From: a virus
Virus record (IMG/VR): IMGVR_UViG_3300046817_000222
Span: 1 to 48,791 of that record
Reading direction: 5' to 3' (one strand)
DNA: 48,791 nt
The notes under the pieces are model-generated. The model was not told where the DNA came from, made no database searches, and saw only the letters and a list, made by a program, of their open reading frames with translations. A program made the translations under genes and the position numbers. This document shows, one piece after another, positions 1,521 to 41,055 of the stretch (the first letter of the stretch is position 1; each line of letters begins with the position of its first letter).

Positions 1521-2380
1521 GCGATCCCTCGGGCGCCGAGATGCGCTCCCCAAACGACGACGCGCCGTTCAGCGAAAGCGACCGGGCGCATGTCCTAAGT
1601 GCCGCGATGCCTAATCTCAGTTCCGAGGTCTCGCCGCGCTCCTCGGGAGGCGCACCAAATGAGGCTGCACGCACCTTGGCTCGCCTGCTCGACTACGCTG
1701 GCCACAAGAGCGGAGGAGGCTGGTGCGGACCTGTCACCTGTCAATGCGGCTACGCCGAAGCGCGCGACGCAGCAATCGCAGCCGTGGCCACACTGGGCAC
1801 GGATCGCGACGACTGGCAAACTCTGCATGCGGCGTGGACGAAGCGCGCCAATGAAGCCGAGGCTCAGGTCTCCGCGCTCCGGCAGGAGGCCGCAAACTCC
1901 AAAATCGTCCTCGAAGAAAGCGTCCTCGCTTTCGAGCGGGCAACGGCGGCAGGGTTCCAACTCGCGCAAGATGTCACCGCCGCGCGTCAGGAGGCCGAGA
2001 CCCTTACCAGGCAGCGCGATGCGGCGATTCGAGAAATCAGCGTAATTGCACGAGAGGCCGAGGCCCTACGCAAGCAGCTCGACGAGGCGAGGCAAGCGGC
2101 AGACGGCGCAAACGAGGAGGAGGCGGTTGCCCGGCGCGCACTCGACTCGCAAGCATTGGATTACGAGGCGTTGAGCCGGGAGGCCGAGACCCTACGGGGC
2201 CAACGCGACGAGGCGCTGAAAGACACAGCACGTCTCGATTGGCTGGCGCAAAGCGATGACTGGAAATCCAGCACGGGCGCGCGCCTCCGCGTCCCGAACA
2301 TTCGCGGCATCATCGACCAAGCGATGCAAAACGAAGCCATCGACGCCGCCCGCGTTGCCGCCCCACGAGAGCCGAAATGA
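1517..2380 (+). CDS. Coiled-coil protein with C-terminal RLDWL...IDQAM motif
   Basis: A 287-residue protein. Residues about 100-235 are a long Ala/Glu/Arg/Gln-rich coiled coil with repeated EAETLRxQRDEA segments. The C-terminus has DTARLDWLAQ followed by RVPNIRGIIDQAM, a closing motif found at the end of many short phage proteins of unknown role. An N-terminal C-rich patch (CGPVTCQCGYAEARDAA, about residue 70) suggests metal binding. The N-terminus (MSDPSGAE) and C-terminus (APREPK) match the tags of nearby genes. Function unknown. Confidence 0.7.
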   Translation: MSDPSGAEMRSPNDDAPFSESDRAHVLSAAMPNLSSEVSPRSSGGAPNEAARTLARLLDYAGHKSGGGWCGPVTCQCGYAEARDAAIAAVATLGTDRDDWQTLHAAWTKRANEAEAQVSALRQEAANSKIVLEESVLAFERATAAGFQLAQDVTAARQEAETLTRQRDAAIREISVIAREAEALRKQLDEARQAADGANEEEAVARRALDSQALDYEALSREAETLRGQRDEALKDTARLDWLAQSDDWKSSTGARLRVPNIRGIIDQAMQNEAIDAARVAAPREPK

Positions 2381-2706
2381 GCCGCGATCCGTCCGCCCTC
2401 GACTCCGGGGGCCGCGCTGAGCCCCCTCGGGACCGCGACGAGACGTGTGCCAGTTGCGAGCACTCGCTCGAAGCGCATGTCAGAACGGAGGCGGGGACGG
2501 TTCGGTGTTTCGTCTCTCACTCCGGCGTCACGTCTGAGGGAGTTATTGGTTTGGCCTACACGACACGTTGCGATTGTCGCGACTTCAAGTCGGAAGCCGC
2601 TGATCGAAAGCGCGAGCAACATGCCGCTGATGAGCGTCGTTGGGACTTCTTGAAGAAGCTGTATCCCGCACCGGCCGAGCTTCCCGGCAGCAATAACCCA
2701 CTCTGA
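2377..2706 (+). CDS. Hypothetical zinc-binding protein (109 aa)
   Basis: Residues 28-35 contain CASCEHSLEAH and residues about 65-69 contain CDCRDF, a plausible four-ligand zinc site around a small beta domain (GTVRCFVSH). The N-terminal tag (AEPPRD, residues 14-19) is also seen in the gene starting at 2957. Starts in an ATGA overlap. Function unknown. Confidence 0.6.
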   Translation: MSRDPSALDSGGRAEPPRDRDETCASCEHSLEAHVRTEAGTVRCFVSHSGVTSEGVIGLAYTTRCDCRDFKSEAADRKREQHAADERRWDFLKKLYPAPAELPGSNNPL

Positions 2707-2718
2707 GGATCATCGACA

Positions 2719-2964
2719 ATGGCCGTCAAACTCAAGTTCACCGTCGTCGAGCAGAAGCAACAGAAAAATTCATTCGGCGCTGGCCTGATTGGCTCTGTCC
2801 GACTCGTTCCGGTGATGAGCGGGAGCGACGAGAACAAGGAGTTCTACACGTACACGCCTGGCGGCCAGATCGAGTTCTACACGATCAACGACGCGGCGCT
2901 CAAGTCGCTGCCGGTCGGCGCGGAAGTGTACGTCACGCTGGAAGTCGCGCCCGCGAATGCCTGA
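2719..2964 (+). CDS. Conserved small phage protein (81 aa)
   Basis: A compact, mainly beta protein (KLKFTVVEQ...VRLVPVMSGS.ENKEFYTYTPGGQIEFYTIN...LPVGAEVYVTLEV). It resembles a widespread small phage protein family without a known role, usually near recombination or early genes. Unlike its neighbours it has its own small gap and a GAGGA-type ribosome site upstream and lacks the tag at its N-terminus, so it may be an older resident of this arm. Confidence 0.7.
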   Translation: MAVKLKFTVVEQKQQKNSFGAGLIGSVRLVPVMSGSDENKEFYTYTPGGQIEFYTINDAALKSLPVGAEVYVTLEVAPANA

Positions 2965-3388
2965 CGCCGCTGAGCCCCCTCGGGACTTCCCGTCCGCCCC
3001 GCCAGCCGAGCCGGGTCATCCGGTGTTCGCCGTCGCATTCTGTCGATGGGGCGACGAGCCGCGCGTTCTTGTGATGGAAGGCGACGACATCGAAAGGGGC
3101 TGGTCGGAATCGCTAGAGAACGACGGCGAGGACTACTGGCCGCTGCCGAAAGATCGCGGCGCGTACCCATTGCTCGCCTTCGACGGCACCGTTGAAACGG
3201 ACGTGGAATACCACGCGCGCATCTGCGGCTGCGATCACCCCGGCGTCTCGGACGACGCGAAGGACGAAGACTGTGAATGGTGCAACGAGGAGGAGTGGCC
3301 GTTCGTGATGGACGGCAAGTGGAGGAAGGCAACGGCCTCGGATCTCATTCGCGCAAAACTCGTCGCACCCGAGAAGTCGAATGTCTAA
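2957..3388 (+). CDS. Hypothetical acidic protein with Cys motifs
   Basis: A 143-residue, acidic, Trp-rich protein. It opens with the tag AEPPRDFPSAP (residues 5-15). CGCDHP and CEWC (about residues 90-115) could bind a metal. The end (DGKWRKATASDLIRAKLVAPEK) looks helical. Overlaps both neighbours. Function unknown. Confidence 0.6.
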   Translation: MPDAAEPPRDFPSAPPAEPGHPVFAVAFCRWGDEPRVLVMEGDDIERGWSESLENDGEDYWPLPKDRGAYPLLAFDGTVETDVEYHARICGCDHPGVSDDAKDEDCEWCNEEEWPFVMDGKWRKATASDLIRAKLVAPEKSNV

Positions 3389-3566
3389 CCAGTCCCCCGA
3401 GTTCCCGTCCGCCCCGCGCGCCGCGATTTGTCCGGCGTGGGACTCGCCTACGTGCGCCGAGCGCCTAGGGCTCACTGACTACTGCGATTGCGTTTGCCAT
3501 CGCGGGATATTCAGATGCACCGGCTATCGCCCCGCGCCGATTTCGGAGTCCTCCGATGTCAGATAG
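3381..3566 (+). CDS. Small Cys-rich protein (61 aa)
   Basis: After the tag NQSPEFPSAP (residues 3-12) come Cys residues in C...C...CDCVCH...C order, probably a single zinc-binding knuckle. The tag is encoded by a 20-bp stretch (3387-3406) that recurs exactly at 4491-4510 in another gene. Function unknown. Confidence 0.55.
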   Translation: MSNQSPEFPSAPRAAICPAWDSPTCAERLGLTDYCDCVCHRGIFRCTGYRPAPISESSDVR

Positions 3567-4020
3567 CCCGTCCTCCGAGTATCCTGACTTCGCCGGCTGG
3601 GTGACGATCTCCTGCGGCTGTTGCGCGGGCATTGAGTGGGGCGGCTTCTATCCGCGTGAGTGTCGGCGGTGCGGCGGCGGGGGCTATCTCGCCAAGCATC
3701 TCGCGAGCGGCGCGGTTGCCCTGTACCCAGGCGGCCCGTTTCGGTGGCGTGAAAAGCCTGCGTTCGGTGTCGGGTCTCCTCCGATGAACGTACCGAACGT
3801 AATAGCTGACGAGCGGGGCGTGATTGTGCACGACAGCGGATGGCCGCGCTGCCACTCGTGCGGCCGCCCAGCGCGCGACGTCGCATCGCTGCACTACCGG
3901 CGCGCAGACGGTGTCCGTGGTATGAGTTATCCCGACTGCTCCGACTGCCGCGAACAGAACGCGCGCCGACTTGAACGGCTCGGATTCACGCTAACGCGCG
4001 CCCCACGAGAGCCGAAATGA
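3556..4020 (+). CDS. Two-module zinc-finger protein, apparent fusion
   Basis: Residues 1-70 hold CGCCAGIEWGGFYPRECRRCGGGG, a zinc module with a DnaJ-like CxxCxGxG arm that resembles small actinophage proteins. Residues 77-154 hold a second module with CHSCG and CSDC pairs. Between them the sequence GVGSPP-M matches the C-terminal tag of other genes here (5074-5763, 4811-5077) followed directly by a start codon (ATG 3784). It looks like two adjacent genes joined because the usual stop at the boundary is missing. It ends in APREPK, shared with the 1517-2380 gene. Confidence 0.7.
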   Translation: MSDSPSSEYPDFAGWVTISCGCCAGIEWGGFYPRECRRCGGGGYLAKHLASGAVALYPGGPFRWREKPAFGVGSPPMNVPNVIADERGVIVHDSGWPRCHSCGRPARDVASLHYRRADGVRGMSYPDCSDCREQNARRLERLGFTLTRAPREPK

Positions 4021-4241
4021 GCGACTCCTCGGGCACCCCAAGAGACCGCGATGCGATGACTGAGCACGACGCGACGATGCTGGTGGAGAACTTCGCCCAA
4101 GCGGTGCGAGATTCGCTTGACGCTAGCTACGAATACGGCGTGGACAGCGCGAAGCATAGCGCGGCGAAATTCGATATGAAGCGCATTCAGACCACCCTTA
4201 TCATCGCGTTGGTCTGCGCGGGGAGTCCCGATGACCGCTGA
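4017..4241 (+). CDS. Hypothetical helical protein (74 aa)
   Basis: Opens with the tag MSDSSGTPRDRD. The body (LVENFAQAVRDSLDASYEYGVDSAKH...MKRIQTTLIIALVCAG) is predicted helical with a hydrophobic C-terminal stretch. The 23 bases around its start (4000-4022) repeat those around the start at 2377. Function unknown. Confidence 0.55.
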   Translation: MSDSSGTPRDRDAMTEHDATMLVENFAQAVRDSLDASYEYGVDSAKHSAAKFDMKRIQTTLIIALVCAGSPDDR

Positions 4242-4482
4242 GCCCTCTCGGGACATCCCGTCCGCCCCCGAAATCGTCGGCAGCATTCCGCTCGACTTGG
4301 AAATCATCGTTTCCATCGCCTATCGCTTCCGAAAAGCGCAGTTCGCGGAGCCGCGCGGGTTCATCGAACGGTTCCGCGTGCGGACACCCGACGAGATGGC
4401 GAGCGCCGTGGCCGAAGTCGAAGCGGCGATGTGGAGCGGCACCCTTCAATCCATTCACGAAGCGCAACGAGGAACCGCGTGA
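4231..4482 (+). CDS. Hypothetical protein (83 aa)
   Basis: Begins with AEPSRDIPSAP, a one-residue variant of the AEPPRDFPSAP tag at 2957. The body is helical and mixed-charge (LEIIVSIAYRFRKAQFAEPRGFIERFRVRTPDEM). Overlaps both neighbours. No family recognised. Confidence 0.55.
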   Translation: MTAEPSRDIPSAPEIVGSIPLDLEIIVSIAYRFRKAQFAEPRGFIERFRVRTPDEMASAVAEVEAAMWSGTLQSIHEAQRGTA

Positions 4483-4814
4483 CCCCCGCTAACCAGTCCC
4501 CCGAGTTCCCCTCCGTGGGAGCAAGAGCGCGATTCACGACGCCGCACGATGCGCCGGGATTTGTGCTGGCGCGCAACGGGCAGGTCGGTGTCATCGAGGA
4601 CTTGGGCGGCCGGTACGACGTGCCGTTCGCGGCGAGCATCCGATTCGACGATGGTGGCCAGTTGTGGGCATACGCCGACGAACTCTCTCCGCTCCCCGCC
4701 GCGCCGACAAATGAGGTGGATTGGCGAGACGATACGATCGCCGCGCGAATGGTGAAGGACAACGGGCATCACGATCCGAGCGCCGCCGCGCCGCTACAGG
4801 AGGATACGAAATGA
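4479..4814 (+). CDS. Hypothetical protein with small beta domain
   Basis: GTG 4479 is chosen because it overlaps the previous TGA (GTGA) and because the following codons encode the NQSPEFPS tag. The body (GARARFTTPHDAPGFVLARNGQVGVIEDLGGRYDVPFAASIRFDDG) resembles an SH3-like beta barrel of the kind found in small DNA- or RNA-associated proteins. Ends ...PLQEDTK. Function unknown. Confidence 0.6.
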   Translation: MTPANQSPEFPSVGARARFTTPHDAPGFVLARNGQVGVIEDLGGRYDVPFAASIRFDDGGQLWAYADELSPLPAAPTNEVDWRDDTIAARMVKDNGHHDPSAAAPLQEDTK

Positions 4815-5077
4815 GCCGCTGCATGGAATGCGGGATGGACATCGAATCGACCGGCCACTTCTGCGGCGTCTATCGATCGCCATTCGGTATAGCGGGCGGC
4901 GTCACGACTCCTGCACCGCGCGGTTGGATCTGCCCGAACTGCGGCGCGGGCGTCAGTCCATTCGCGACGACCTGCACCTGCCATCACACGCGAACGACGT
5001 ACGGCATTTCGGGCTCCGCTCCGACACCGGAGACGCCCGCGGTCGGGTCTCCTCCCCTAAAGGGAGACGGAAAATGA
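4811..5077 (+). CDS. Double zinc-ribbon protein (88 aa)
   Basis: CMECGMD...GHFCG at residues 4-19 and CPNCGAGVSPFATTCTCH at residues 37-54 form two probable zinc knuckles. ATG 4811 gives the four-base overlap with the previous gene. The C-terminal GSPPLKGDGK is the tag type found at the end of the next gene. Function unknown. Confidence 0.65.
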   Translation: MSRCMECGMDIESTGHFCGVYRSPFGIAGGVTTPAPRGWICPNCGAGVSPFATTCTCHHTRTTYGISGSAPTPETPAVGSPPLKGDGK

Positions 5078-15324: not shown

Positions 15325-16416
15325 TCAGGTCTCCAGCGGGAGGAAGTGAATCGTCACGGCCACGGTGCTCGTCGCCTGACTCAGATTCACGATTTCATAA
15401 TAGATCGAGGACACAGGCGAGCCGTCAGCGTTGTAGAATCCGACGCTTAGCCGGCGAAGCGATTGCGTGTTTGCGCCGACCGTGCCGCTCTGGAATGACC
15501 ACTCCGCGAGCATGCTCACCGTCGTCGGGCAGGGCGTACCGAGGGGACGTGATGCGTCAGCCGTGCGATCGGCACTCGTGGCATAGAGGCGAACCCGACA
15601 ATCGCGGTCGACGCTGATCTCGCCCATCTCGCCCCACTTTGCCATCGTGACCGTCCCCGTCTCAGCGGCAGTGTTCGCGAGACTGGCGGTCGTTTGCGTC
15701 ACGCTTGAGCGAGAGACACCACCCGCTGCGGCGGCCCATTTCATACCCGTGGATTGCGCCGAATCCGCGGTCAGTACCCACGTATCAGTGCCGACGTTCA
15801 GCTTGCTCAACGTACTCGCGGCAGAACCAGCCAGAAGGTCGCCCTTCGCGACAGTCGCCGGAACGCTATTGCCATTGATCTTCGCGACGGTCGGATTCGG
15901 GAATGTGCCCGAGAGGTCGCCACCAGCAGTTCCACTCGGCGGCGCCCCCGAGCCAATAGCTGCGGTCACGAATGCCGTTGTTGCAATCGAAGTATCGTTA
16001 TCGCCCGGCGATGCTGTTGGTGCCTTCGGGTCGCCGGTAAACGTCGGATTCGCGAGCGGCGCCTTGAGTGCTAAATCGCTCACCAGATTTGTGACCGCCG
16101 ACTCAGCAATCGCGACCGCGACCGTCGTTGCTGCCGTCAGCCGTCCGTCCGCCCCGACTGTCAACGTGACGATATGCGACGCATCGCCATAAGCGCCCCC
16201 AACGACCGTCGTACTTGCCAACCCTGGATTCGGCAGTGTTCCGGTCAGCACGCCACCAACGACAAGCCCTGACGCCCCGCCGAGCGGTGAGACGGTCCCA
16301 GTTTCGTCCTTCACCGACACCACGTGCGAGGTGTTGTCGACAAAGATCGTTTTCGCCCCGGCAGGAGGCGTTGGGACCGAGGCCGGCGCTACTTCGACAA
16401 AGCCGAGCTGGGACAT
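15325..16416 (-). CDS. Tail-fibre-like protein with G-LSGT-PNP repeats
   Basis: Repeats of the form GGxLxGTxPNPxxA (residues 54-67 and about 165-178) are hallmarks of phage fibre shafts. A segment [34 protein letters not shown] (about 114-147) matches the 'TFTG...P.....D.STxIATTAFV' element common in phage tail fibres. The C-terminal domain probably forms a trimeric tip. AGGGGA site upstream of ATG 16416. Confidence 0.8.
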
Positions 16417-20402: not shown

Positions 20403-20975
20403 CTACTTGAGCGCCTGAAGCGTTGCCATGATGTCCTGGCACGCCTCTTTGTAGTTCGTCATCGCGAACTGCTGGTACTCCTGATTCCGCACCGCCAGAT
20501 CCTCGCGCATGTTGTAGCCCCACGTCGCCGCGAAATGGCAGTTGAAGCCATCCTTCCACACACTCGCGTCGGTATGTGGGGCGTTCACCGACCGCCATTC
20601 GCGGCTCAGGTAGTAGAACCAGAACTCGCTCACCGGAGGCCACTGATGCGTTGGATCGCCATAGGCCCGACAGCTTGCCCAGTGCGGGATGATGACCTGA
20701 CACTTCCCGTCAGGGACGAGAACGCGGTGCAGCTCGTTGACGAATAGGCACCGCTGCGGGGCCGTCAGGTGTTCGATGAAGTGCGAGGCGTGCGCTTCAC
20801 TGACCGAGTTGTCCCGCCACGGCCACGGTGCCTTGGTGAGGTCGACGACCTGATCGACACCGACGAATGCCGTCTTGTCAACGCCAATGAACCCTTCGCG
20901 TTTATGCGGACCACTCCCCAGGTCCAGCTTGAGTAGTGTCGGTTCGAGTTTGAGTTTGCGCGCCGGCTTACCCAT
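20403..20975 (-). CDS. SAM-dependent methyltransferase (class I)
   Basis: Shows motif I as LDLGSGPHKREGFIGVD (residues 18-34) and motif IV-like SEAHASHFIEHL (59-70), with LHRVLVPDGKCQVIIPH (84-100), the layout of small class I methyltransferases that act on sugars, lipids or small molecules. It follows a glycosyltransferase gene with a three-base gap, so they may act on the same substrate, such as a modified glycan or virion protein. No target domain for DNA is visible. Confidence 0.8.
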   Translation of the reverse strand: MGKPARKLKLEPTLLKLDLGSGPHKREGFIGVDKTAFVGVDQVVDLTKAPWPWRDNSVSEAHASHFIEHLTAPQRCLFVNELHRVLVPDGKCQVIIPHWASCRAYGDPTHQWPPVSEFWFYYLSREWRSVNAPHTDASVWKDGFNCHFAATWGYNMREDLAVRNQEYQQFAMTNYKEACQDIMATLQALK

Positions 20976-20978
20976 TCG

Positions 20979-21695
20979 TCACCATACGATGTCCGTGTCA
21001 GGGTCTAAGTGGCCTACCAGTACCGAGCAGTCGATCGCACAGCGGTATCCGTACTTCCGCGCCTCGACCCAGAACGCTAGATCCTGCGTCCCGACGCCTT
21101 CTTTCCCCGCCTTGGTCTGGAACCAGGGGCGTTTGATGCGGTCGTCCTTGAACATCGACAACCGCCAGAGATTGAATCCCATCCCCGTGCCACAGCACTC
21201 GACGAGCTGGCCCGGCACCGGAAGTAGCGGCCGGAAGTTCGTCACTGGATCTTTCGGATCGCCCCAAATCTGAGCAACGCCACCCTCGCCCTTCGTGAAG
21301 TACAGACCGCCGATACACGCCAGTTCGGGATGCGCTTCCATCTGCTCGATCAGTTTGAGAATCCCGTCTTGCGGCGGCAGGTTGTCATGTTCCACCGTCA
21401 GCAGGTATTCCCACTGCTTCAGCTCGGGATGCTCGAGGATCTGAGCGATAGCCTGCGAGTAGGCGTCGCCGACTTCCATCCCTTGCGCGAGAATCCGTAC
21501 AACGCCCTGGTTCGGCGGGAAGATCAGATTCCAATGCGACAGAGCGGCCTTGGCGGGCATGGACTGGCCGGCCGGAATGACGAGCACGATGCGCTGCTTC
21601 TTCCACGATGCGCCTTTGATGAGCCGCGAGCGCGTCCCGTTGAGATCGCGCGCGTGGTGGCCGCCGAAATCTTGGATGACGAGTTCGGGCTTCAT
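20979..21695 (-). CDS. GT-A type glycosyltransferase (family 2-like)
   Basis: 238 residues. IVLVIPAGQSMPAKAALSHWNL, then YLLTVEHDNLPPQDGILKLIE (97-117) with the acidic metal-binding motif EHD, then IGGLYF, GTGMGFNLWRLSMF and TQDLAFWVEARKYGYRCAIDCSVLVGH, the typical order of a GT-A fold. The donor cannot be read from the sequence. It lies directly downstream of the tail-fibre gene, so glycosylation of virion proteins or host glycans is likely; glycosylation of DNA bases cannot be excluded. Confidence 0.8.
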   Translation of the reverse strand: MKPELVIQDFGGHHARDLNGTRSRLIKGASWKKQRIVLVIPAGQSMPAKAALSHWNLIFPPNQGVVRILAQGMEVGDAYSQAIAQILEHPELKQWEYLLTVEHDNLPPQDGILKLIEQMEAHPELACIGGLYFTKGEGGVAQIWGDPKDPVTNFRPLLPVPGQLVECCGTGMGFNLWRLSMFKDDRIKRPWFQTKAGKEGVGTQDLAFWVEARKYGYRCAIDCSVLVGHLDPDTDIVW

Positions 21696-23350
21696 GGGCG
21701 CAACACAAACCAGGGAGCGAGCGGTGCGCTTGCGCCAGTAAAGTTGGCAAGGACGTCCGTCTGACCTACGTTCGCCGGAAGGCCAGCTGAGTTAGCCGTG
21801 TAGCGGCCCCACAGAGCCTCGACGCCCCACGTGGTGTTGGTGGTGTTCGGGTTGTCGCTCCCGGCCATGATGAAGCCGCGCGGGATGCTCGCCGTCACGC
21901 CGCCAAAGAGCGAGAAGTTCATGCCGCCCGTCGCCGCGCCGGAAATGTTGAGCCCGAGGACATAAGCGCCCGGGGTCAGCGCCGTCATTCCAGTAGCGAA
22001 GCCCGTGGCGACCACGTACTGAATGCCGCTGTAACTAGCTGTCTGCGATAGGCTGTAGCTGTTTGCGAAACTGCCGAGTTGCGCGATGGATGTGTTGTTG
22101 ACGTAACTGTAGAGGCCAGCCATTAGCGTAAAGAGCGGATTGGTCGACGTGTTGACGACGCTGACTTGCACGATGAGCGAACTGGCCGTCAGAAATCCCT
22201 TGAGCGCAAACGGCACGAAGATCGGACGCGAGTTGATGCCGCTCACATGCGTCATCAGACCGAACGCGACCTCGTCATCGACCTCGAAATATCGGAGCGC
22301 TGGACCAGCCGCCGCCGTGACGGTCGAGCCACTGAGCCCGAAGGACACCCCGTTGCTGTTCGAGAAGACGACGTTGCCAAAAGTCTGGCTCGATCCAGCG
22401 ACGGACAACGTGATCACCGACGCCGTTGAAGGAGAGACCGAACCGGTCACGGTTGAACCGGCGAGGCCAAAGGACACGCCATTTAGATTTGAGAAGACGA
22501 GGTTCGAGAGGTTGTTACTCGAGCCAGCTACCGAGACGTTGATGTTCGAGATCGTCGCGGCATTCGACTGCATGGCAGTCGTGAGATATGCCGGGAGGTT
22601 GACAGACACACCGGACGTATTCACGGTGATTGACCCACCGGTAATCGCGCCATTCACGCCCGCATATCTGCTGGAGTTCGCGGACAAGTCGGCCGTGGTC
22701 AGATAGGACGGTACTGCGAGGAGCAGCCCCGCCGTGTTATGCGTTCCCGCCACGACGGCGCCAGTTACGGTTGTTGTCGTGAATCCCGTAAACGCATACT
22801 TGCTCGTATCACCAGAGAGCGCCGCCGTAGTCAGATAGGCAGGTAGGTTGACGCTCACGCCAGACGTGTTGACGGTGATCGAACCGCCCGTAATGGCGCC
22901 ATTGATCCCGGCGTACTTGCTAGAGTTTGCGGACAGGTCGGCAGTCGTCAGGTACGCGGGCAGGTTGATTGAGACCCCCGACGTATTGACCGTCAACGAA
23001 CCACCCGTAATTGCCCCATTCGTACCCGCGCCACCAGCCGCACTCTCGACATCCGTCAGCGTCTTGGCCGTGATCGTGGCCGCGATCTGGTCGCCAATAA
23101 CCACCGTCCGCGCGCTGGAACTTTCCTGCGCCCGCGTGATCGTCAGGACGTCACCCGCGATATTCGTGACGCGCACCACTTCCGCGTTCGTCGCGAGCGG
23201 CATCGCCGCAGTCGGCCAGACCGTGGCATTGAATGGCGTGGCCGGGAACAACGCCCCATCGCCAGTCGCAACAGTCAGCGATGTCCCCGAGCTGGCGGGG
23301 CTCGGCGCGACTGCTACCGTCGAATAGGCGAAGTTCTTATGCGCGTCCAT
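21692..23350 (-). CDS. Tail-fibre-like protein with long repeats
   Basis: The N-terminus (KNFAYSTVAVAPSPASSGTSLTVATG...VVRVTNIAGDVLTITRAQE) is an attachment domain found in many phage fibres. About 35-residue repeats (NGAITGGSLTVNTSGVSINL and variants) follow, at least three copies encoded at about 22590-23030. The C-terminus is a beta-rich tip. The upstream gene overlaps by four codons. Confidence 0.85.
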   Translation of the reverse strand: MDAHKNFAYSTVAVAPSPASSGTSLTVATGDGALFPATPFNATVWPTAAMPLATNAEVVRVTNIAGDVLTITRAQESSSARTVVIGDQIAATITAKTLTDVESAAGGAGTNGAITGGSLTVNTSGVSINLPAYLTTADLSANSSKYAGINGAITGGSITVNTSGVSVNLPAYLTTAALSGDTSKYAFTGFTTTTVTGAVVAGTHNTAGLLLAVPSYLTTADLSANSSRYAGVNGAITGGSITVNTSGVSVNLPAYLTTAMQSNAATISNINVSVAGSSNNLSNLVFSNLNGVSFGLAGSTVTGSVSPSTASVITLSVAGSSQTFGNVVFSNSNGVSFGLSGSTVTAAAGPALRYFEVDDEVAFGLMTHVSGINSRPIFVPFALKGFLTASSLIVQVSVVNTSTNPLFTLMAGLYSYVNNTSIAQLGSFANSYSLSQTASYSGIQYVVATGFATGMTALTPGAYVLGLNISGAATGGMNFSLFGGVTASIPRGFIMAGSDNPNTTNTTWGVEALWGRYTANSAGLPANVGQTDVLANFTGASAPLAPWFVLRP

Positions 23351-26304: not shown

Positions 26305-26859
26305 CTAGGGTTTGCCGGTTCGGTTGCCAGTGGTGCGAAGATCGGTGCGTTTGTCCCGAATCTTCTGGATGCCATAAGCGGTCTGCGCTGCACCACTCAG
26401 CAAATCAGACCACGATTGCGCCCGCAGTCCACTCGCTGTCATATCACCCGTGATCGCCGCGACGTCTCCTTCTCGGCGCTGCTGTATCCCTTGAACCTTG
26501 TAACCCCACGCTTCGCGCGCCGCGTTGTTCCGTATCGTCAACTCGTCCAACGCCCCGACAGCCGACTCGGACGCTTGCACGTCAGCCGCCGATCCGCTTG
26601 AGACATCCACGCCCTGAGCGGCTAGCGCCGCCCGACTCGATCCGATCGCTTGTCGCGTCGCGAGCCCCTGACGTTGCGCTTCAAGCTGCCCGCGATCCGT
26701 CGCGTCCTTGGCTTCCAGGTCCGACAGCCGCGCGTTCTCGTAGTCGACGGCCTTGGCATACTGGCCCTGTGCCGATGCCGCGGACGCTTGCCGCTGCGCG
26801 CCCATGACGTTCTGGACGGTGGAGAACGAGCTGAGTGCTATCGCTGCGTAGTCACCCAT
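26305..26859 (-). CDS. Internal virion protein, gp14-like (184 aa)
   Basis: Highly helical. The motif AALAAQGVDVSSGSAADVQASESAVGALDELTIRNNAAREAWGY (about 78-121) is characteristic of gp14-like internal virion proteins that form part of the ejection channel. It overlaps the nozzle C-terminal ORF upstream by one codon. Confidence 0.75.
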   Translation of the reverse strand: MGDYAAIALSSFSTVQNVMGAQRQASAASAQGQYAKAVDYENARLSDLEAKDATDRGQLEAQRQGLATRQAIGSSRAALAAQGVDVSSGSAADVQASESAVGALDELTIRNNAAREAWGYKVQGIQQRREGDVAAITGDMTASGLRAQSWSDLLSGAAQTAYGIQKIRDKRTDLRTTGNRTGKP

Positions 26860-27941
26860 TAGCCGGGTCCGGGTATAAATCCATGTTTCACGACCGACGT
26901 GATGTTCGCCGCGACGGGATCAACCGACCGGATAAACACCCGACCGTTGTCCGTCCATCGGCTGATGATATTGGCGTCGATGTATTGCGTCAGATACTTC
27001 TCGTAGTTGTCATCAGTCGGCAACGGGACTTCCTGCAAGTCCTGCAACGGATTCAGGGCATCATTCGTCGGGGGCAAGCCACCACCCCAGATCGACCGCG
27101 ACTGTGCGACCATGAACCCGAGCTTACTGATGTCGATTTTCTGGCCCTTGAGGCTCGGCCCTTGTGGCGAATCAATGTCCAGCGTCTCGATGTCCGAGAG
27201 ATACGGAAGCCCGACAATCACGCGCGAGTAGAAATCGCCAAGCGAGACCGCGCCACTCGTCACAGTGATGACGGGAAGCCGGGCGTTATTCGGCGAAGCA
27301 ATCACATGCTCGTCCCCGAGAATACCAACGGCTTCCCCCTCGAGATGATCGAGTCCTGCGACCGCATCGACGAGTCGGTCCCAGACCGTGATATCGGCCG
27401 ACCGGATCGCGGTCGGAATGGCAATATCCGCGACCCCCGTGACGACGGTGGCACTCGTAAACACGCCAATCGTGAACCGCGTCGTCGATAACGTCGCTCC
27501 GGTAATGCTATCCGTTTCGTGGAGGACGAGGACGTTCCCGACGTCGCCTGAGATGAACGTATTTGCCGACGCAGTAAGGGTGAGGATTTCACCAGGAAGC
27601 CACGTAGAACCACCCGAGAACGCCAGTGTGACGCCGGGATGGAGACCATCCGAGGCTCCTGCGTTCCGGCCATCATATTCGAGAGCTGAATCGACATACA
27701 GAGTGCCACCACGACCGATGAGCGCGGCCGGCGCTGCCTGTGGCGGAACGGGATTCCCACCACCACCGGTTCCACCACCGGTCTCGTTACTGGACCAAAC
27801 GACCTGCTTCCCAATAATCGTGACGTTACCGTCATTGATGACCGGGAAGGCGACCTGCTTCCCGATCTGCGTGACATTGTTATCTGGGCCAATTCCCCAG
27901 ACAACCTGCTTCCCGATCTGCGTTGCACGGTTGTCGGACAC
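26859..27941 (-). CDS. Nozzle (tail tubular B) C-terminal part with TQIGKQV repeats
   Basis: The N-terminus has three repeats (TQIGKQVVW, TQIGKQVAF, TIIGKQVVW, residues 7-49). Then comes YVDSALEYDGRNAG...VTLAFSGG and AGLDHLEGEAVGILGDEHV, followed by LPVITVTSGAVSLGDFYSRVIVGLPYLSDIETLDID. These are the usual C-terminal parts of the podovirus nozzle protein, which in most phages continue directly from the part encoded at 29141-31438. GTG 27941. The missing junction to the N-terminal part is described in the findings. Confidence 0.75.
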   Translation of the reverse strand: MSDNRATQIGKQVVWGIGPDNNVTQIGKQVAFPVINDGNVTIIGKQVVWSSNETGGGTGGGGNPVPPQAAPAALIGRGGTLYVDSALEYDGRNAGASDGLHPGVTLAFSGGSTWLPGEILTLTASANTFISGDVGNVLVLHETDSITGATLSTTRFTIGVFTSATVVTGVADIAIPTAIRSADITVWDRLVDAVAGLDHLEGEAVGILGDEHVIASPNNARLPVITVTSGAVSLGDFYSRVIVGLPYLSDIETLDIDSPQGPSLKGQKIDISKLGFMVAQSRSIWGGGLPPTNDALNPLQDLQEVPLPTDDNYEKYLTQYIDANIISRWTDNGRVFIRSVDPVAANITSVVKHGFIPGPG

Positions 27942-27944
27942 AAC

Positions 27945-29144
27945 CTAGGCCACACGCTGATACACGATTTCCGCCGCATCACAATTCACAATAGACCACG
28001 CCGCGCTCGTATGTGGATCGACTTGATGGCCCGGTGCGGGTCCAGCCTGTGTCATTAGGGCATAGCCGGTCGGCGTTGAGAGGTCCACGCCATTATCGAC
28101 TTCTGTAGCGCCAGAGATCATCCCGTAGCGCGCCGTATTGGCGCTTGCGTCTGTCTTGCGGTGGATGATGAGTTCTGTCACTTCTGCTATCGACGCCGTG
28201 TTTGCTGGCATCGGTTCTGTGGGGAACGAGACCTTCTTCGGCAACGCCGCATTGGTCTCTTGGATATAGGTCGTGTCCCCGTCTGCCTGCTGCTCGCTCA
28301 CGCACGCGAGGAGCGTTCCTGCGCCGGTGGCAACACCGGCAGTATATGTCCCACTACCCGTCGTGAATGACCCGCTCACCTCGGCCCGGCGATAGGAGAC
28401 GCGCTGATCACCAATACGGCCAGTACCGGAACAATCATGGAATACGGCGTCGGTCGCGAAACAGGAGGCAAAACTATCCGTCCGAATCTGGACGTATCCA
28501 ATCTTTCCCGACCCGCCAATCACGTTCCGCGTTGAGACGCCACTGAGGTTGAGAACGAGCGTACTATCGGCGTAGACCTGCACGCTCCCACTCGTCGCAT
28601 GAATGACGGGATGAACAATCTCGATATGCGTGTAGTTCCCGTTTTGCTGATTCGCACCGACCGGCATCACAAATGTCGAAATGCCGATGATCGTCCCTTT
28701 ATTGCCCCCACCCGATCCCGAGCCATTCCGAACGCAGAGACGACCGTCATTTAGCACTTCAACCGAAAGGTGTAGAAGCGCCTTACTAAACGAACCGTCG
28801 CCAAGCCCGTCGTCGTCCCAGAAATCACAGAGCAGCGTATCGCCGATATGACCGCCCTGATTGTACGCGAACGCAACGCCAATTTTGTTGTTGGTCATCG
28901 CATTCGTATCAATGGCACCGGAGAAGCCAAGCGTAGTCGCCCGTAGCCCCATATGACTTCCCTGCATCGACCAGCCTTGGTCTGCTCCCGACCCGCGACC
29001 CCATTGGGCAAGATTGGCCGGAGAAGCTACCCCTAGATCGCCAAAACTGTTGTTACTCGACCCTGAGAGCGAGAGATAAACCTGATTCCAGACTGAGTTG
29101 CCATACCCAAACGACTCACGCCAAAGAATAACTGGATCGCTCAT
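27945..29144 (-). CDS. Lectin-like virion protein inserted between nozzle halves
   Basis: 399 residues. Beta-rich, with a concanavalin-like or laminin G-like layout (LWRESFGYGNSVWNQVY, NYTHIEIVHPVI, SGSVQVYADSTLVLNLSG). The C-terminus may form a second small domain (VIHRKTDASANTARYGMISG). Its start overlaps the nozzle N-terminal ORF (ATGA) and its end is three bases from the C-terminal ORF, so it is translated between the two. Probably a receptor-binding or decoration domain. Confidence 0.65.
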   Translation of the reverse strand: MSDPVILWRESFGYGNSVWNQVYLSLSGSSNNSFGDLGVASPANLAQWGRGSGADQGWSMQGSHMGLRATTLGFSGAIDTNAMTNNKIGVAFAYNQGGHIGDTLLCDFWDDDGLGDGSFSKALLHLSVEVLNDGRLCVRNGSGSGGGNKGTIIGISTFVMPVGANQQNGNYTHIEIVHPVIHATSGSVQVYADSTLVLNLSGVSTRNVIGGSGKIGYVQIRTDSFASCFATDAVFHDCSGTGRIGDQRVSYRRAEVSGSFTTGSGTYTAGVATGAGTLLACVSEQQADGDTTYIQETNAALPKKVSFPTEPMPANTASIAEVTELIIHRKTDASANTARYGMISGATEVDNGVDLSTPTGYALMTQAGPAPGHQVDPHTSAAWSIVNCDAAEIVYQRVA

Positions 29145-31438
29145 GGAAGCACCGTAATCGTGGTGGAACTATTCGATGTGACGAATTGCGAGTTGACAAA
29201 ACCAGACAATTCGTAGCGGACGCGGAGCCAGTAGTCACCGGTCGCCGTAATATTCCAGAGTGCCCCGGTCTGACCGAATGCAAAGAATCCGACTTGGGAG
29301 AACTCGCCGTCAGTAGGTGCGATGCTCGTAGGACCGGCGATCTGTACGTTCGAGTTGCCACCCTGCGGACTCTCCGGCCACTGAATTGTCGTGGCCGTCA
29401 CTCCGCTACTCTCACCGGTATCGGTGATCGTCGGCGCTGAGGCCGGATCAATAAGCGTTGGCGTGGTCGCAATCGCGGTCGCGAATTGCGTGTCCGGCGT
29501 CGGACCTAGCCAATCCGATGTATCGGTGCCGATCACGTGTTGGACGCGCCACTGATACGACGAATGGGTATTAAGCCCCGTAAACGTGAAAGACTGTTGT
29601 CCTGCTGGCACGCTGAATGACACCCATGTCTGCGATCCGAACGCTTGAATCTGAGCCGTGCTGGCTGCACTGAGATTACCAGCTGTCCAGTTGGCCGTCG
29701 CCGTCGTGGTCGTGATATCCGTCGTGCTCGGGTTGGTCGGCGGAGAAATCGTCTGAGGGTTCGGCGGCGGTGGCGGGGGCGGCGGTGGTGGCGTCACGAC
29801 ACCGCCGACAGATGTCGCCGGCTGAATGGCGACCTGCGGGAACTGGATCGTCGACGTCTGCCATTCGATGTACCGGTGGTACGTCGTCGTCGTCGGTGGG
29901 TCCGAGCCCGCAATCAATCGGCGCGCAATCCAGTAGACCCGATGTTCCCTGCCCTCCGGGACACATGCCACCGCCTCGACAAAGCCCTGCGTGTCATGCC
30001 GTGACCACGCAAAGACTTCCTGTTCCGGGATGTACGTGAGGGCGAGTAGTACGCCGTCCGACCGCACCGCCCAGAGCACATGGGGGTAGACCTGCTGCCA
30101 GCACCAATCGACGATCGTGTACCCATCAACGAGATGGGACGAGTAGATCGTCAGGTCACTGGACTGGAGCGCGTAGTATCCGAATTGCACGTTGGCTTGC
30201 AGTTCGCGCACCTGCGCGCCGAGCGCCTGCAAGAAGATGAGTTGGTTGCCCGCCTTGATCGGCCGGAGTCCAGCGACACCATCGCTCGCCCCGATACGCG
30301 CATTGACCGCGCTCGGCGTGATAGTCCCATTGCCATCGCCCTCGACAATCCATTCCGCGCCATCGCTAAGAACGACCATGCGCCCGACATTCAAGACGCC
30401 ACGAACCCGGTCAATCTCCTCAGAGACCAATCGGAACGTGATCGCATCATCATCCTGAACAAAAACGGACGTCGTGAAGTTATGGTAGAAGCCTGTACGT
30501 GACGCCCAGATCGTGTCGGGATTGTTATTGGAGGCCGCAAAGACGAGGCGTTGCTGATAGTAGGTGACGACAGCCGGATAGTTGCTGATCGACTGAAACA
30601 GCGTACTCGCAACTGGCGGCTGAAGCGTGATGTCGGGCAACGTCGACCCGTCATCGGCAAATGCCGTCGCGATCGTCTCACCAAGGTAGGCGAATACGCC
30701 ACCGGTATACGACCCGCCGGACGCGAGCACTTTGAACGGGACACGCTTGTAGACCTTGTAGGTCGCTGCATCCGTGACCGCCGTCCATTCGACTTTGATC
30801 GGCGCGACATCGGTCGCTTGCGTAATGATGCCCGATTCTAGACTCTGTAGCGATTCCTCGCCTTGCGCTGTGACTGAAGTGACCACGTAGTCCGACAGAC
30901 TGCCGAGCAGCACGGCCGGAAACCCTGTCCCGCCTGTAACTGTCGGCATTCCCGGCGCTGCGATGGACGGATTGAATACGATGTCCGTCAGTGTCCAATT
31001 CGTATCGCCAAACCGCTTCAGCTCTTTCGGTGGATACGTCGGATGGACGATCGTCACCACATCGGCCGACTGGACGTACTGAAGGTCCGGCAGGTCCGTT
31101 TCGAGATACGGTGTCGCGATCTCGTACGGGTCCGGTGGGCTCGCAGGATCTTCAACCACCGCCGCGTTCTGGATGAATCGGATATAGTGCTCGCCGAACT
31201 CCAGCACCAGCGTATCGGAGATGTTGAACACGAACGGGATCAACCGCGTCCGCTTGGTCGAGTCCTTGACCTCTGTGACGTACAGCGTCCCCGGCCGCTT
31301 GTTCACGCCACCCTGTCGGGCAACAATGAAATTGCGGCACTGGCGCAGCCCGACCTCGTACTTCGCCAAATCGGTGCGCGAATACAGTGCAGGTGCTAGT
31401 TCGCCCGCCGAGAATGACTTGTTGGCGAGGTTCGCCAC
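29141..31438 (-). CDS. Nozzle (tail tubular B) N-terminal part with FN3 domain
   Basis: 765 residues, GTG start. The first 540 residues have the standard nozzle sequence (NLANKSFSAGELAPALYSR, VGLRQCRNFIVARQGGVNKR, FGEHYIRFIQNA), ending in TTTYHRYIEWQTS, where the chain normally continues to the C-terminal part. Instead a run of ten Pro (near residue 550) joins it to an FN3-like domain (TATANWTAGN...YQWRVQHVIG) and a beta-rich end. The nozzle forms the lower tail tube through which DNA leaves. Confidence 0.85.
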   Translation of the reverse strand: MANLANKSFSAGELAPALYSRTDLAKYEVGLRQCRNFIVARQGGVNKRPGTLYVTEVKDSTKRTRLIPFVFNISDTLVLEFGEHYIRFIQNAAVVEDPASPPDPYEIATPYLETDLPDLQYVQSADVVTIVHPTYPPKELKRFGDTNWTLTDIVFNPSIAAPGMPTVTGGTGFPAVLLGSLSDYVVTSVTAQGEESLQSLESGIITQATDVAPIKVEWTAVTDAATYKVYKRVPFKVLASGGSYTGGVFAYLGETIATAFADDGSTLPDITLQPPVASTLFQSISNYPAVVTYYQQRLVFAASNNNPDTIWASRTGFYHNFTTSVFVQDDDAITFRLVSEEIDRVRGVLNVGRMVVLSDGAEWIVEGDGNGTITPSAVNARIGASDGVAGLRPIKAGNQLIFLQALGAQVRELQANVQFGYYALQSSDLTIYSSHLVDGYTIVDWCWQQVYPHVLWAVRSDGVLLALTYIPEQEVFAWSRHDTQGFVEAVACVPEGREHRVYWIARRLIAGSDPPTTTTYHRYIEWQTSTIQFPQVAIQPATSVGGVVTPPPPPPPPPPNPQTISPPTNPSTTDITTTTATANWTAGNLSAASTAQIQAFGSQTWVSFSVPAGQQSFTFTGLNTHSSYQWRVQHVIGTDTSDWLGPTPDTQFATAIATTPTLIDPASAPTITDTGESSGVTATTIQWPESPQGGNSNVQIAGPTSIAPTDGEFSQVGFFAFGQTGALWNITATGDYWLRVRYELSGFVNSQFVTSNSSTTITVLP

Positions 31439-32106
31439 TAGCCGTCCCGCGTCAGAACGAACTGAGATTCCGGCGCGGGGTCAGGGACTTCCTCGTTCAG
31501 CGCAGTGGCTTGCGCTTGGTTGATGATCTGCTGGTACAACTGATAGGCTCGAGCGCCGAGTTTACCCGAATCGCCGCCCTGTGAAATCGCCGGGGCGAGA
31601 TAGAACGCGAGTTTGGCGGCAAGGGCTTGGGCGAACTCGGACGTGAACTGCGCTTCGGCAGTGATGTCGGTCGTGTACTCCAACTGCGGCTGTTGCGGCG
31701 TATCGGCTGTCGCGACGATGACCGGGAAGTCGGTATAGAGCAACCGGCCCGTACTATCACTCCCAACGATGAACGACCATCGCGTCTGTGGGACATCGAG
31801 CCGCGTTCCGGGCAAGAGCCGGCGCGGGCGTAGACAGTCGGCTGGCAGCCGATAGCTGTACTGGTAGTCCATCGTCACCGGGACTGTGGTCGTCCCGCCA
31901 ACGAGAACTAGTGTGGCATACCGACGAGCGAACGGCCAGTTGAACTCCCGCAACACCTCGTCGCGCGTCGTGTCAAAGAACACCGCACACGCCTTCGCGT
32001 TCTGGTCGTTCGCGTCAGTAATAGCCGTGATCGTCTTGCCCACGGCCAAGTGGCCGAGGCACATGTTGCAAATCGTCGTGGTGGTCGGGACGAATTGCGT
32101 CGGCAT
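31438..32106 (-). CDS. Tail gatekeeper (tail tubular A)
   Basis: 222 residues. The pattern ICNMCLGHLAVGKTITAITDANDQNAKACAVFFDTTRDEVLREFNWPFARRYATL (12-67) is diagnostic for podovirus gatekeeper proteins that close the portal after packaging and join it to the nozzle. It overlaps the nozzle gene (TAGTG). Confidence 0.9.
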   Translation of the reverse strand: MPTQFVPTTTTICNMCLGHLAVGKTITAITDANDQNAKACAVFFDTTRDEVLREFNWPFARRYATLVLVGGTTTVPVTMDYQYSYRLPADCLRPRRLLPGTRLDVPQTRWSFIVGSDSTGRLLYTDFPVIVATADTPQQPQLEYTTDITAEAQFTSEFAQALAAKLAFYLAPAISQGGDSGKLGARAYQLYQQIINQAQATALNEEVPDPAPESQFVLTRDG

Positions 32107-38138: not shown

Positions 38139-38632
38139 GCGCTCGCCCTCAATGTTTCACGCACGCTCAGCCGCTTCACGTATATCCGGTCCATTTCGAC
38201 ATATCCCTTCCGCTCCAGCAACTTCCCGAAATCGTGCGCGGCCTTCACATGCTGCGTCACGACATCGACACCTTCCGCTTGAAGCCACCCATCGCAGTAC
38301 TCGATGAACTTCCCGCCCAAGCCCCGATGGTCCGGGTCGACATAAATCACGTCCTGGGCGGCAAAGAGGCAACTCATGTAGTGCGGGTGCGGACGGACGA
38401 AGAATAGCGCATATCCCACCAAGGGAAGGCGATAGCGCTCGTTCCGATCGTCCAACCGCACCGTAAAACATCGGATGAATCCCGCCTTCTGCGAGGCTGC
38501 ATAGACCTCATAGTCCGGCTCTAGCGGGATGTCCTCAAAATGTGCGACCTCGCGCCAATGCGCGTGTAAGAGCGGGGTCGCTTCCGCCCATAGTTCCGGG
38601 GTCAGATCTTCGCGAGCATAGACGAGGCTCAT
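38135..38632 (-). CDS. GNAT-family N-acetyltransferase
   Basis: 165 residues with YALFFVRPHPHYMSCLFAAQDVIYVDPDHRGLGGKFIEYCDGWL (72-115), the acetyl-CoA-binding core, and VKAAHDFGKLLERKGYVEMDRIYVKRL at the end. A relative of this enzyme is encoded in the same place in many podoviruses. The substrate is unknown, perhaps a virion or host protein. Start and end overlap neighbours. Confidence 0.85.
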   Translation of the reverse strand: MSLVYAREDLTPELWAEATPLLHAHWREVAHFEDIPLEPDYEVYAASQKAGFIRCFTVRLDDRNERYRLPLVGYALFFVRPHPHYMSCLFAAQDVIYVDPDHRGLGGKFIEYCDGWLQAEGVDVVTQHVKAAHDFGKLLERKGYVEMDRIYVKRLSVRETLRASA

Positions 38633-41055
38633 GGTAGCGCAGCCTCGTTATCAGCCATACAGAGATTGTCCCAATATCGGTCCTCAGATGTTTGAATGAC
38701 TGAGTTGTACTGATATCCGAATCCCGGCCCCCCGATCTGCGTGAAGCCTGGAGCAATCCATGTCAACCCGGTATTCGAGTTCACTAGCGTGCCATCGAGA
38801 AAGATGTCGGCCTTGCCGTCAGTCCCGCCCGCGATGGTCTCTATTGTGTAGTGAACCTTCAGCCGATGCCACGAATCCCAACTGAAGGTGGCAAGCCCGT
38901 ACTGAGAATAGATCGGAGGCTTGGCACCACCACTGCCGAATGCAAAAACCAGTTGGCTGACATTCGGATCAGTCCCTTGGTTCCATGCCGTAATGAGGCC
39001 ACCATCGCCTGAATTGGGCTGGCCATAATCGACCAACAATTTGCGTTGTTGAAACTCGGTTCCAGCAGGCGGTCTCGGAATGTAGAAATCGCCCTGAATC
39101 CATCGCGAATCCCCGAACGTCATAGGAATATCGCTTGATAGATAGAGGCCGCGGTTATCGTCGTATTGGCCGGGTGGATTATTCTGATAGTGCATCCGCG
39201 CGACCTTTCCGTGGCCTCCACCGGTCGGATCACTAATGACATCAATGCCGGTGCCCCACGCATTGTAGAACGGACCAAATGTCCCGTCCTCAAAATCCGC
39301 GAAGGCCAATCGGCCAACCGGAGGTGATGTCGGCGTCGGGACTGAGACGGCTACCGTATTCGATGTGACCACAGGACTCGTGATCGTGGCCGTGATGTTC
39401 GACAGTCCCGCCGAGACACCGGTCACCAATCCTGACCCGCTCACCGTCGCGATGCCGGTCTGACTGGAATGCCATGCATCAACCGCCTGCGCGAGTGTTC
39501 CGCCCGCCGCGTTTTTCACGACCGCCAGCAACTGCTGCGTTGCAGCAACGGCGACAGTCGGCGCAGTCGGTGTCAGGGCAATCGAGGCCGGTACCGTATC
39601 GGGGATCGTGATGACCGCAGTATTCGACGTCACGCTCGGACTAGCAATCGTCGCCGTGATGTTCACGCTGCCCGCTGCAACCGCAGTCACCAGTCCCGAA
39701 CTATTCACCGTCGCACGTCCGGTATTACTGGAATGCCACGCGCTCACCGCTTGCGACAACGCGACACCACCAGCGTTCTTCACCACCGCCGCCATCTGCT
39801 GTGTGCCGCCAACATTCACGGTCGCTGCGGTCGGGCTGATCGCAATACTCGACGGCGTGTTATCCACCGGTGCCTGTACCGTCACCACCACGCCATTCGA
39901 TGTCACACTCGGCGAGGTGATGGTCGCAGTGATCGTTGTCGTTCCCGCGCCGACGCCAGTCACCTTCCCATTGGCGTCAACGGTCGCCTTTCCGGTATCG
40001 GATGAGTGCCACGCGTCCACGCCCTGACTCAAGGTTGTCCCTCCGGTATTCTTCACGACTGCCGTGAGTTGGAGTGTGGCACTCGTATTCACCGTCCCGC
40101 TCGTCGGTGTCACTGCGATGCTCGTCGGCACCGTATCCGGCACCGTAATGACCGCCGTGTTGCTCGTGAGCGACGGGGACGTAATCGTCGCGGTCACGTT
40201 CGTCGTCCCGGCCAAGACGCCCGTTACTAATCCCGATCCACTCACAGTGGCCTTCGTCGCGTCCGAACTGTGCCATGCACTCACTGGCACCGCGACTGCG
40301 ATCGCTTCCGCATTCGCGACAATCGCGTGCATCTGCTGCGTTGCACCAACCACTACAGTCGCACTCGTCGGCGTAATAGCAATCGTACTTGGCACAAGGT
40401 CCGAGACGGTCAGGACCGCCGTATTACTCGTTAGGCTCGGCGAGGTCAATGTCGCCGTGATATTCGTCGACCCCAATGACACCGCTGTCACCAATCCTGC
40501 ACTATCGACCGTCGCAACGCCCGGACTGCTCGAGTGCCACGCACTCACACTCTGGCCCGGAATCAGGACCGCCAGCGGATTCAACACCGAGGCCAACAAC
40601 TGCACCGACGTTGATGGGAGCACGGCCACCGTACTAGGACTGACCACAATCGATGTCGGCGTTGCATTCACCGAGACAGGCAATGGCGTCGAGAAAATCG
40701 CCTGATAGTTCGCCGTGATATTCGTCGTGCCAGTCGATAGCGCCGTCAGAATACCGTTCCCGTCGACCGTTGCCACCGCGACATTAGAACTCTGCCACCC
40801 GGTCGGAAGCAGCCCTGTCGATTGACCTTGTGGATTCTCGATAATCGCGGTGCATTGAACGTGTGAGCCAAGTTCGATAACTGAAAACGGGCTCGTAATC
40901 GTCACTGCGGACGGCGTGGTAGAACTCGGTGGCGTCGAACTCGTCGGCGGGGTGGTATCCCCTTCTCGGTCGCGGCTCGCCTGGTGGTAATTCTGGACCC
41001 GCGCCCCTTGTTCGCGGCGCCCCTGATCCACCCGACCCTGCGACCGTGATGGCAC
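38629..41055 (-). CDS. Adhesin with six Big2 repeats and a lectin-like end
   Basis: 808 residues, GTG start. A low-complexity start (residues 1-50) is followed by six BIG2 Ig-like repeats of about 85 residues with the core AWHSSD.G.ATV...GLVTGV.AGTTNITA. The last 230 residues (RLAFADFEDGTFGPFYNAWGTGIDVIS...YWDNLCMAD) are a concanavalin-like jelly roll related in layout to polysaccharide-binding or lyase domains. Likely a virion surface fibre that contacts host polysaccharide. Confidence 0.8.
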   Translation of the reverse strand: MPSRSQGRVDQGRREQGARVQNYHQASRDREGDTTPPTSSTPPSSTTPSAVTITSPFSVIELGSHVQCTAIIENPQGQSTGLLPTGWQSSNVAVATVDGNGILTALSTGTTNITANYQAIFSTPLPVSVNATPTSIVVSPSTVAVLPSTSVQLLASVLNPLAVLIPGQSVSAWHSSSPGVATVDSAGLVTAVSLGSTNITATLTSPSLTSNTAVLTVSDLVPSTIAITPTSATVVVGATQQMHAIVANAEAIAVAVPVSAWHSSDATKATVSGSGLVTGVLAGTTNVTATITSPSLTSNTAVITVPDTVPTSIAVTPTSGTVNTSATLQLTAVVKNTGGTTLSQGVDAWHSSDTGKATVDANGKVTGVGAGTTTITATITSPSVTSNGVVVTVQAPVDNTPSSIAISPTAATVNVGGTQQMAAVVKNAGGVALSQAVSAWHSSNTGRATVNSSGLVTAVAAGSVNITATIASPSVTSNTAVITIPDTVPASIALTPTAPTVAVAATQQLLAVVKNAAGGTLAQAVDAWHSSQTGIATVSGSGLVTGVSAGLSNITATITSPVVTSNTVAVSVPTPTSPPVGRLAFADFEDGTFGPFYNAWGTGIDVISDPTGGGHGKVARMHYQNNPPGQYDDNRGLYLSSDIPMTFGDSRWIQGDFYIPRPPAGTEFQQRKLLVDYGQPNSGDGGLITAWNQGTDPNVSQLVFAFGSGGAKPPIYSQYGLATFSWDSWHRLKVHYTIETIAGGTDGKADIFLDGTLVNSNTGLTWIAPGFTQIGGPGFGYQYNSVIQTSEDRYWDNLCMADNEAALP

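Follow-up and report, generated by a model that had tools for sequence, protein, structure and literature searches.

How does a phage build its nozzle, the valve that keeps the genome under pressure and the route by which the DNA leaves, when the gene for it encloses another complete gene? The question is raised by a virus record of 48,791 bases (IMGVR_UViG_3300046817_000222, positions 1 to 48,791; this whole stretch is called the window below). An earlier reading made from the sequence alone (the sequence-only reading) had described there a nozzle protein split by a complete third open reading frame (ORF). Our analysis supports this interpretation, under which the three ORFs would be co-translated and the nozzle assembled from two chains. 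It also suggests, from sequence comparison, that the middle ORF and a set of repeats next to it belong together as a module that occurs outside nozzles too. We consider it likely that the virus has a two-chain nozzle of the podophage type, that an adhesin gene and its repeats entered the ancestral nozzle gene, and that the adhesin is displayed at the seam. The three ORFs are as follows.

29141-31438, minus strand: W3, N-terminal nozzle chain with an extension (765 amino acids, aa)
27945-29144, minus strand: W2, middle ORF (399 aa)
26859-27941, minus strand: W1, repeat leader and nozzle C-terminal part (360 aa, GTG start)

W3 and W2 overlap as ATGA, and a three-base gap separates W2 from W1 (W2 stop TAG, then GTT, then the W1 GTG, in the same frame), just as had been described.

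Division of the nozzle over W3 and W1

With the nozzle family profile phrog_376 (T7 gp12-like, annotated as tail protein; 712 columns), residues 2-513 of W3 matched columns 4-523 (E=5e-142) and residues 81-351 of W1 matched columns 542-704 (E=2e-23). These matches agree with the sequence-only reading, which had placed the N-terminal part of the nozzle in 29141-31438 and the C-terminal part in the ORF from 27941, after three TQIGKQV repeats. In the intact nozzle of Tr60_Ab31, residues 4-504 are covered by W3 and residues 520-772 by W1, so that the halves abut; a stretch of 8-20 residues separates the propeller match from the C-terminal match in the majority of intact relatives. Judged from these alignments, no part of the nozzle is lost, and the seam corresponds to the short linker of intact nozzles.

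29849-31438, minus strand: nozzle part of W3 (aa 1-530), N-terminal platform strands (by analogy with T7) followed by the beta-propeller region (phrog_376, 8ck1)
26859-27707, minus strand: nozzle part of W1 (aa 79-360), putative fibre dock and platform domains (phrog_376, 8ck1, T7 gp12)

A search of the PDB by sequence matched both chains with the solved tail nozzle 8ck1 (W3, E=3e-91; W1, E=3e-21); tail nozzle is the label of this entry and also the annotation of gp36 in the Carin1 genome record. The nozzle part of W3 was 32-47% to intact nozzles. In the AlphaFold 2 (AF2) model of W1, the predicted local distance difference test (pLDDT) score of the C domain was mostly 80-97, and the model matched the fold of 8ck1 (Z 14.7, 281 residues aligned, root-mean-square deviation 5.1) and that of residues 576-791 of T7 gp12 (Z 6.5).

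In T7 gp12 the fibre dock comes after the propeller, at the outer surface, and continues into the C-terminal platform, to which the 45 N-terminal residues contribute three strands (PMC6702177). By homology, the cut in the window would fall where the fibre dock begins, after the beta-propeller, at the outer surface of the nozzle. Should the topology be that of T7, the platform barrel would need both chains, and this shared barrel probably keeps the two halves together. Non-covalent rejoining of W3 and W1 is expected mainly because the T7 platform barrel takes strands from both ends of the protein. W3 and W1 share with phrog_376 the propeller homology, the C-terminal domains and the gene position, and differ from it in not carrying all domains in one polypeptide; a role of the two chains as the hexameric DNA conduit is putative, by membership in the nozzle family.

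Conservation of the division in related viruses

Close relatives were collected by searches with W3 and with the capsid protein. Two contigs from other samples, L195 and L265, carry the same three genes.

L195, 8678-10933: N-terminal chain (751 aa, ten prolines and FN3-like extension)
L195, 10944-12119: W2 homologue
L195, 12136-13203: C-terminal chain, three GKQV repeats at its start
L265, 12737-14998: N-terminal chain
L265, 15017-16102: W2 homologue
L265, 16099-17121: C-terminal chain, two TRVGQIVVY repeats

The identities to the window are 61% (N), 63% (W2) and 62% (C) in L195, and 56%, 36% and 52%, respectively, in L265. A single frame across the region in other isolates would have spoken against a true split; these two contigs keep the split with different spacing. 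The N-terminal gene and the W2 homologue are 10 nucleotides (nt) apart in L195 and 18 nt apart in L265, with Shine-Dalgarno (SD)-like sequences ahead of W2 in both, and the junction between W2 and the C-terminal gene is a 16-nt gap, out of frame, in L195 and an ATGA overlap in L265. Since the spacing of the junctions varies, it is the separate reading frames that are conserved and not their frame relations.

Propeller and C domain are encoded in one ORF at all 149 other nozzle loci compared, which came from named phages and bacterial genomes as well as viral contigs. Among the loci picked by the capsid protein and W3, 41 were fused, two were split, 11 were ended by the contig edge, and one showed no C domain. 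In the nozzle tree the window, L195 and L265 form one clade (100/100 support), nested among fused nozzles beside L013 and L188. No frameshift was found in any of the split lineages, and dN (nonsynonymous divergence) was lower than dS (synonymous divergence) in W3, W2 and W1 (for W1, dN 0.42 against dS 1.6), with dS close to saturation. From this tree and these alignments we conclude that the three-gene split has a single origin and has been conserved across three divergent lineages.

The C-terminal extension of W3

The end of W3 had been read as a ten-proline linker followed by an FN3-like domain, and both elements were recovered.

29141-29848, minus strand: extension of W3 (aa 531-765), proline linker, FN3-like domain and a second domain (Pfam fn3, PDB FN3con chains)
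29762-29791, minus strand: run of ten prolines (aa 550-559)
29525-29746, minus strand: FN3-like domain (aa 565-638; Pfam fn3 at 24.7 bits, cut-off 25)

The PDB matches of the extension were FN3con chains. Our first scan of the loci found no homologue of the extension; it was later found in L187 (92%), L195 (49%) and L265 (39%). In L187, whose capsid protein is 99% identical to that of the window, the proline/FN3 extension is present up to the contig end.

The middle ORF is a divergent member of phrog_2448

W2 gave no match in the first PHROGs and Pfam searches and no relatives in the first scan with it, and its family was reached only through a homologue in Tetraselmis viridis virus S20 (26% over the C-terminal part of W2 by tblastn, E=6e-6) combined with a motif search. 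Relatives of the S20 protein and proteins with the motif DExPxDGDTxY define a family of tail-region proteins of about 340 aa, which is phrog_2448, with members in phiCbK, in Chi-like Proteus and Salmonella phages and in Brevundimonas and Mesorhizobium phages. A profile of 17 family members built without the window found W2 at E=5e-23, as the sole match among the 329 ORFs of the window. The PHROGs model of phrog_2448 stayed below threshold on W2 itself and matches 18 of the 19 alignment members. On the strength of the profile match, W2 is assigned to phrog_2448 as a divergent member. The sequence-only reading had seen a whole ORF between the halves, and W2 indeed starts and stops where its family members do, so its stops are not errors.

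In the model of W2 (pLDDT 69), residues 2-254 form a concanavalin-A/LamG-like beta-sandwich (Z 13-15 to many ConA-like folds), beyond which lies a C-terminal 'DGDTxY' domain. A PDB search by sequence with W2 alone found no match; the profile of the W2 family gave a weak match with the lectin-like domain of a clostridial-neurotoxin-type chain, which we read as fold similarity only. The earlier description of W2 as lectin-like holds at the level of the predicted fold, and W2 may be regarded as a putative adhesin with a sugar-binding-like character.

Tandem repeats accompany genes of the W2 family

27795-27932, minus strand: three tandem repeats with a period of 17 aa, NRATQIGKQVVW, NNVTQIGKQVAF and GNVTIIGKQVVW, in the leader of W1 (by self-similarity)

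The TQIGKQV-type repeats occupy aa 4-15, 21-32 and 38-49 of W1. Their self-similarity score of 46 was reached by about 0.05% of 2,144 control ORF N-termini, and they are not due to chance. At loci picked by the motif, the ORF after the W2-family gene usually opens with 2-5 copies of a sequence like ARVTQLGTEVIY with a period of 15-19. Strong self-similarity in the first 65 residues was found at 14 of 17 distinct metagenomic W2-family loci, as against 1-2.5% of control ORFs or fewer. What follows the leader varies between Sipho_Gp37, Gp84_N/BR0599 hub proteins, Ig-like and other partners, and in Bambus the repeats close the ORF that precedes the W2-family gene.

A position-specific scoring matrix (PSSM) alone was weak for repeats 2 and 3 of the window, and therefore self-similarity and the relatives were used for them. 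In the other members of the nozzle clade the leader profile scored 11.8 (L195; 3 of 2,144 controls as high) and 19.3 (L265; none of 2,144). The TQIGKQV repeats probably belong to the 'RVTQxxVEVL' series. The repeats of W1 are most simply read as the leader of an adhesin-repeat module fused to the C-terminal part of the nozzle, because W2-family genes are linked with repeat leaders and because of the moderate to strong leader profile scores within the nozzle clade.

Three further loci have a bearing on the form of the repeats. The hypothetical protein gp316 of phiCbK (L182, 4799-5008), directly before the W2-family gp315, has 69 aa and contains little beyond three repeats, and the hypothetical gp112 of Cp1R7A (L185, 6059-6370), located after gp113 and adjoining a phrog_2448-family gene, consists almost only of RVTQ-type repeats. 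At L165 (1855-4980) an ORF with about five repeats comes after three W2-family genes in tandem; the number of repeats might track the number of adhesins.

Origin of the split nozzle and alternative explanations

The ancestor would have had an ordinary single-chain nozzle of the phrog_376 family, as in Carin1 and epsilon15. DNA with a LamG-like adhesin gene of the phrog_2448 family and a repeat leader, perhaps together with the FN3-like part, would have entered, in a single event in the ancestor of the clade, the codons of the linker that joins propeller and fibre dock. Three chains would then be made from one operon by co-translation, W3 and W1 would rejoin through the platform barrel as in T7 gp12, and the repeats of W1 would serve as strands that dock W2, perhaps also the FN3 extension, at the fibre dock. 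Up to six adhesin clusters per virion could result beside the ordinary fibres, and W2 is probably an extra adhesin at the seam of the nozzle. On a wider scale, phrog_2448 proteins and tandem 'RVTQxxVEVL' repeats could constitute a general, portable docking module, in which copies of the adhesin clip onto the repeat strip of a hub protein and whose insertion here split the nozzle gene, so that the nozzle would have two chains and bear an array of adhesins at its fibre dock; we find this broader proposal evenly balanced. Several observations weigh against the display of W2 on the repeats. The repeats of the window fit the leader profile moderately (8.2, with 31 of 2,144 controls as high), AF2 confidence is low for the W1 leader, and at 3 of the 17 W2-family loci the next ORF has no leader (at one of them since a second W2-family gene comes next). 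Moreover, the window has separate tail-fibre-like genes (15325-16416 and 21692-23350), so that the main receptor-binding protein may be another than W2.

The closest alternative retains the two-chain nozzle and treats W2 and the repeats as passengers, with W2 used elsewhere on the virion (head or fibres) and the repeats tolerated as an N-terminal tail. The indirect nature of the link between W2 and the nozzle, the low confidence of the leader in the model and the occurrence of stand-alone repeat proteins beside W2-family genes would all fit with it; yet the module stays at the exact seam across W2 identities of 36-63%, and in unrelated phages the repeats sit at the N-terminus of hub-type tail proteins, which makes passengers rather unlikely in our judgement. 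A continuous protein, produced at least in some copies by read-through of the W2 TAG and/or by frameshifting, might be imagined from the window, where W2 and W1 share a frame with a single TAG between them. In-frame read-through is possible only there, and not across the 16-nt out-of-frame gap of L195 or the ATGA overlap of L265; what is conserved is thus the state with separate chains, and these junctions rule out fusion as the conserved state. As gaps of 10 and 18 nt lie between W3 and W2 in L195 and L265, with the SD-like sequences before W2, and TAG also ends the adaptor, gp14-like and terminase genes of the window, we regard a continuous protein as quite improbable.

Still less probable is the decay of one nozzle part into a pseudogene, or a virion that uses the N-terminal chain only. 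Splits of structural genes can be degenerative, but the split lineages are free of frameshifts, the C part of the other two is 52-62% identical to that of the window, the dN of W1 is well below its dS, and the fold of its C domain is confidently predicted. The window is a single virus contig of the metagenome-assembled kind, in which a sequencing or assembly artefact could break a normal nozzle gene. The same architecture in two contigs from other samples, at 52-62% nozzle identity, refutes a sequencing error as the source of the stops; the extension carried by L187 and the agreement of the W2 ends with those of its family speak against an artefact as well, and we give this explanation hardly any credence. 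The display of W2 at the seam of a two-chain nozzle is the explanation that we prefer.

Comparison with known nozzles and adhesins

Carin1 gp36 (Cobetia phage, PDB 8ck1), epsilon15 gp12 and Tr60_Ab31 ORF11 are homologous to W3 plus W1 over the whole nozzle. These phages have the adaptor gene first, then the nozzle, then small internal virion proteins, and this canonical order is otherwise kept in the window, with the following neighbours.

31438-32106, minus strand: adaptor (tail tubular A/connector), next gene upstream (phrog_394, E=8e-37)
26305-26859, minus strand: internal virion protein, T7 gp14-like, next gene downstream (phrog_418, E=2e-25; Pfam T7_gp14 below cut-off)

The three nozzles are single chains of about 780-850 aa, whereas the window has two chains and, at the cut, an FN3-like extension, an adhesin gene and a repeat leader. 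T7 gp12 (6r21, 7ey7), the fibre dock and platform of which (576-791) are matched by W1, is likewise one chain, with a junction free of inserted domains, and the nozzle was a single chain in the solved relatives that we found.

Division of a nozzle gene as such has precedent, because the nozzle family also extends over two adjacent genes in Xanthomonas phage CP2 (ORF19/ORF20), in Pseudomonas phage UFJF_PfDIW6 and at L049. In these, unlike in the window, the cut is N-terminal of the propeller match, no gene lies between, and propeller and C domain are still fused.

L006 (CP2), 1761-4864: N-terminally divided nozzle, second gene keeps propeller and C domain
L007 (PfDIW6), 2320-4789: the same division
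L049: the same division

The families phrog_20269 and phrog_15566 appear to be halves of such N-terminally divided nozzles. A nozzle gene that is cut between propeller and fibre dock and encloses an adhesin gene was, among the loci compared, confined to the clade of the window.

Known phrog_2448 proteins, of which W2 is a divergent relative (Caulobacter phiCbK gp315, Proteus pPM_01 gp38, Brevundimonas Delta_31), come from tail regions of other, mostly long-tailed phages, whereas W2 lies inside a nozzle gene. Hub proteins with a repeat leader (Sipho_Gp37, phiJL001 Gp84_N/BR0599) resemble W1 in having RVTQxxVEVL-type repeats before the hub domain and an adjacent phrog_2448-family gene, and differ in that the C-terminal part of W1 is the nozzle fibre dock/platform instead. 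Neither a split nozzle nor the pairing of repeats with an adhesin was described in the literature searched, which covered few subscription journals.

A stable nozzle made of two chains would suggest that propeller and fibre dock/platform are able to exist as modules of their own, and would offer a natural system in which to ask what part of the nozzle detects the binding of fibres and what part opens the gate. The association of phrog_2448 with the repeat leaders offers a testable function for this family, as well as for small repeat proteins like phiCbK gp316, and gives a hint of the way in which adhesins are exchanged among phages with unrelated types of tail.

Other nozzle loci and other genes of the window

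Some further loci were considered as candidates and rejected. As insertions at the same seam, L012 was set aside with an insert inside the propeller, L019 and L226 with inserts inside the fibre dock, and L122 as a distant relative in which the gap was merely unaligned sequence; L004 was rejected as a split nozzle, the alignment having run beyond the stop. The in-frame insert in L012 (3691-6816) is about 160 aa long; in L019 (3661-6759) it is an E1_FCCH domain, also in frame, and the insert in L226 (5941-8586) looks similar. At L192 (3549-7670) a nozzle-like ORF of more than 1,370 aa has a propeller match followed by more than 400 aa with no recognisable C domain before the contig end.

The phage collection contained no near-identical DNA to the window. 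A protein of 808 aa that has six Ig-like domains of the Big_2 type and a very weak C-terminal polysaccharide-lyase match is encoded near the portal gene (38629-41055), and methyltransferase-like and weak glycosyltransferase-like genes lie amid the tail-fibre-like genes (20403-21695).

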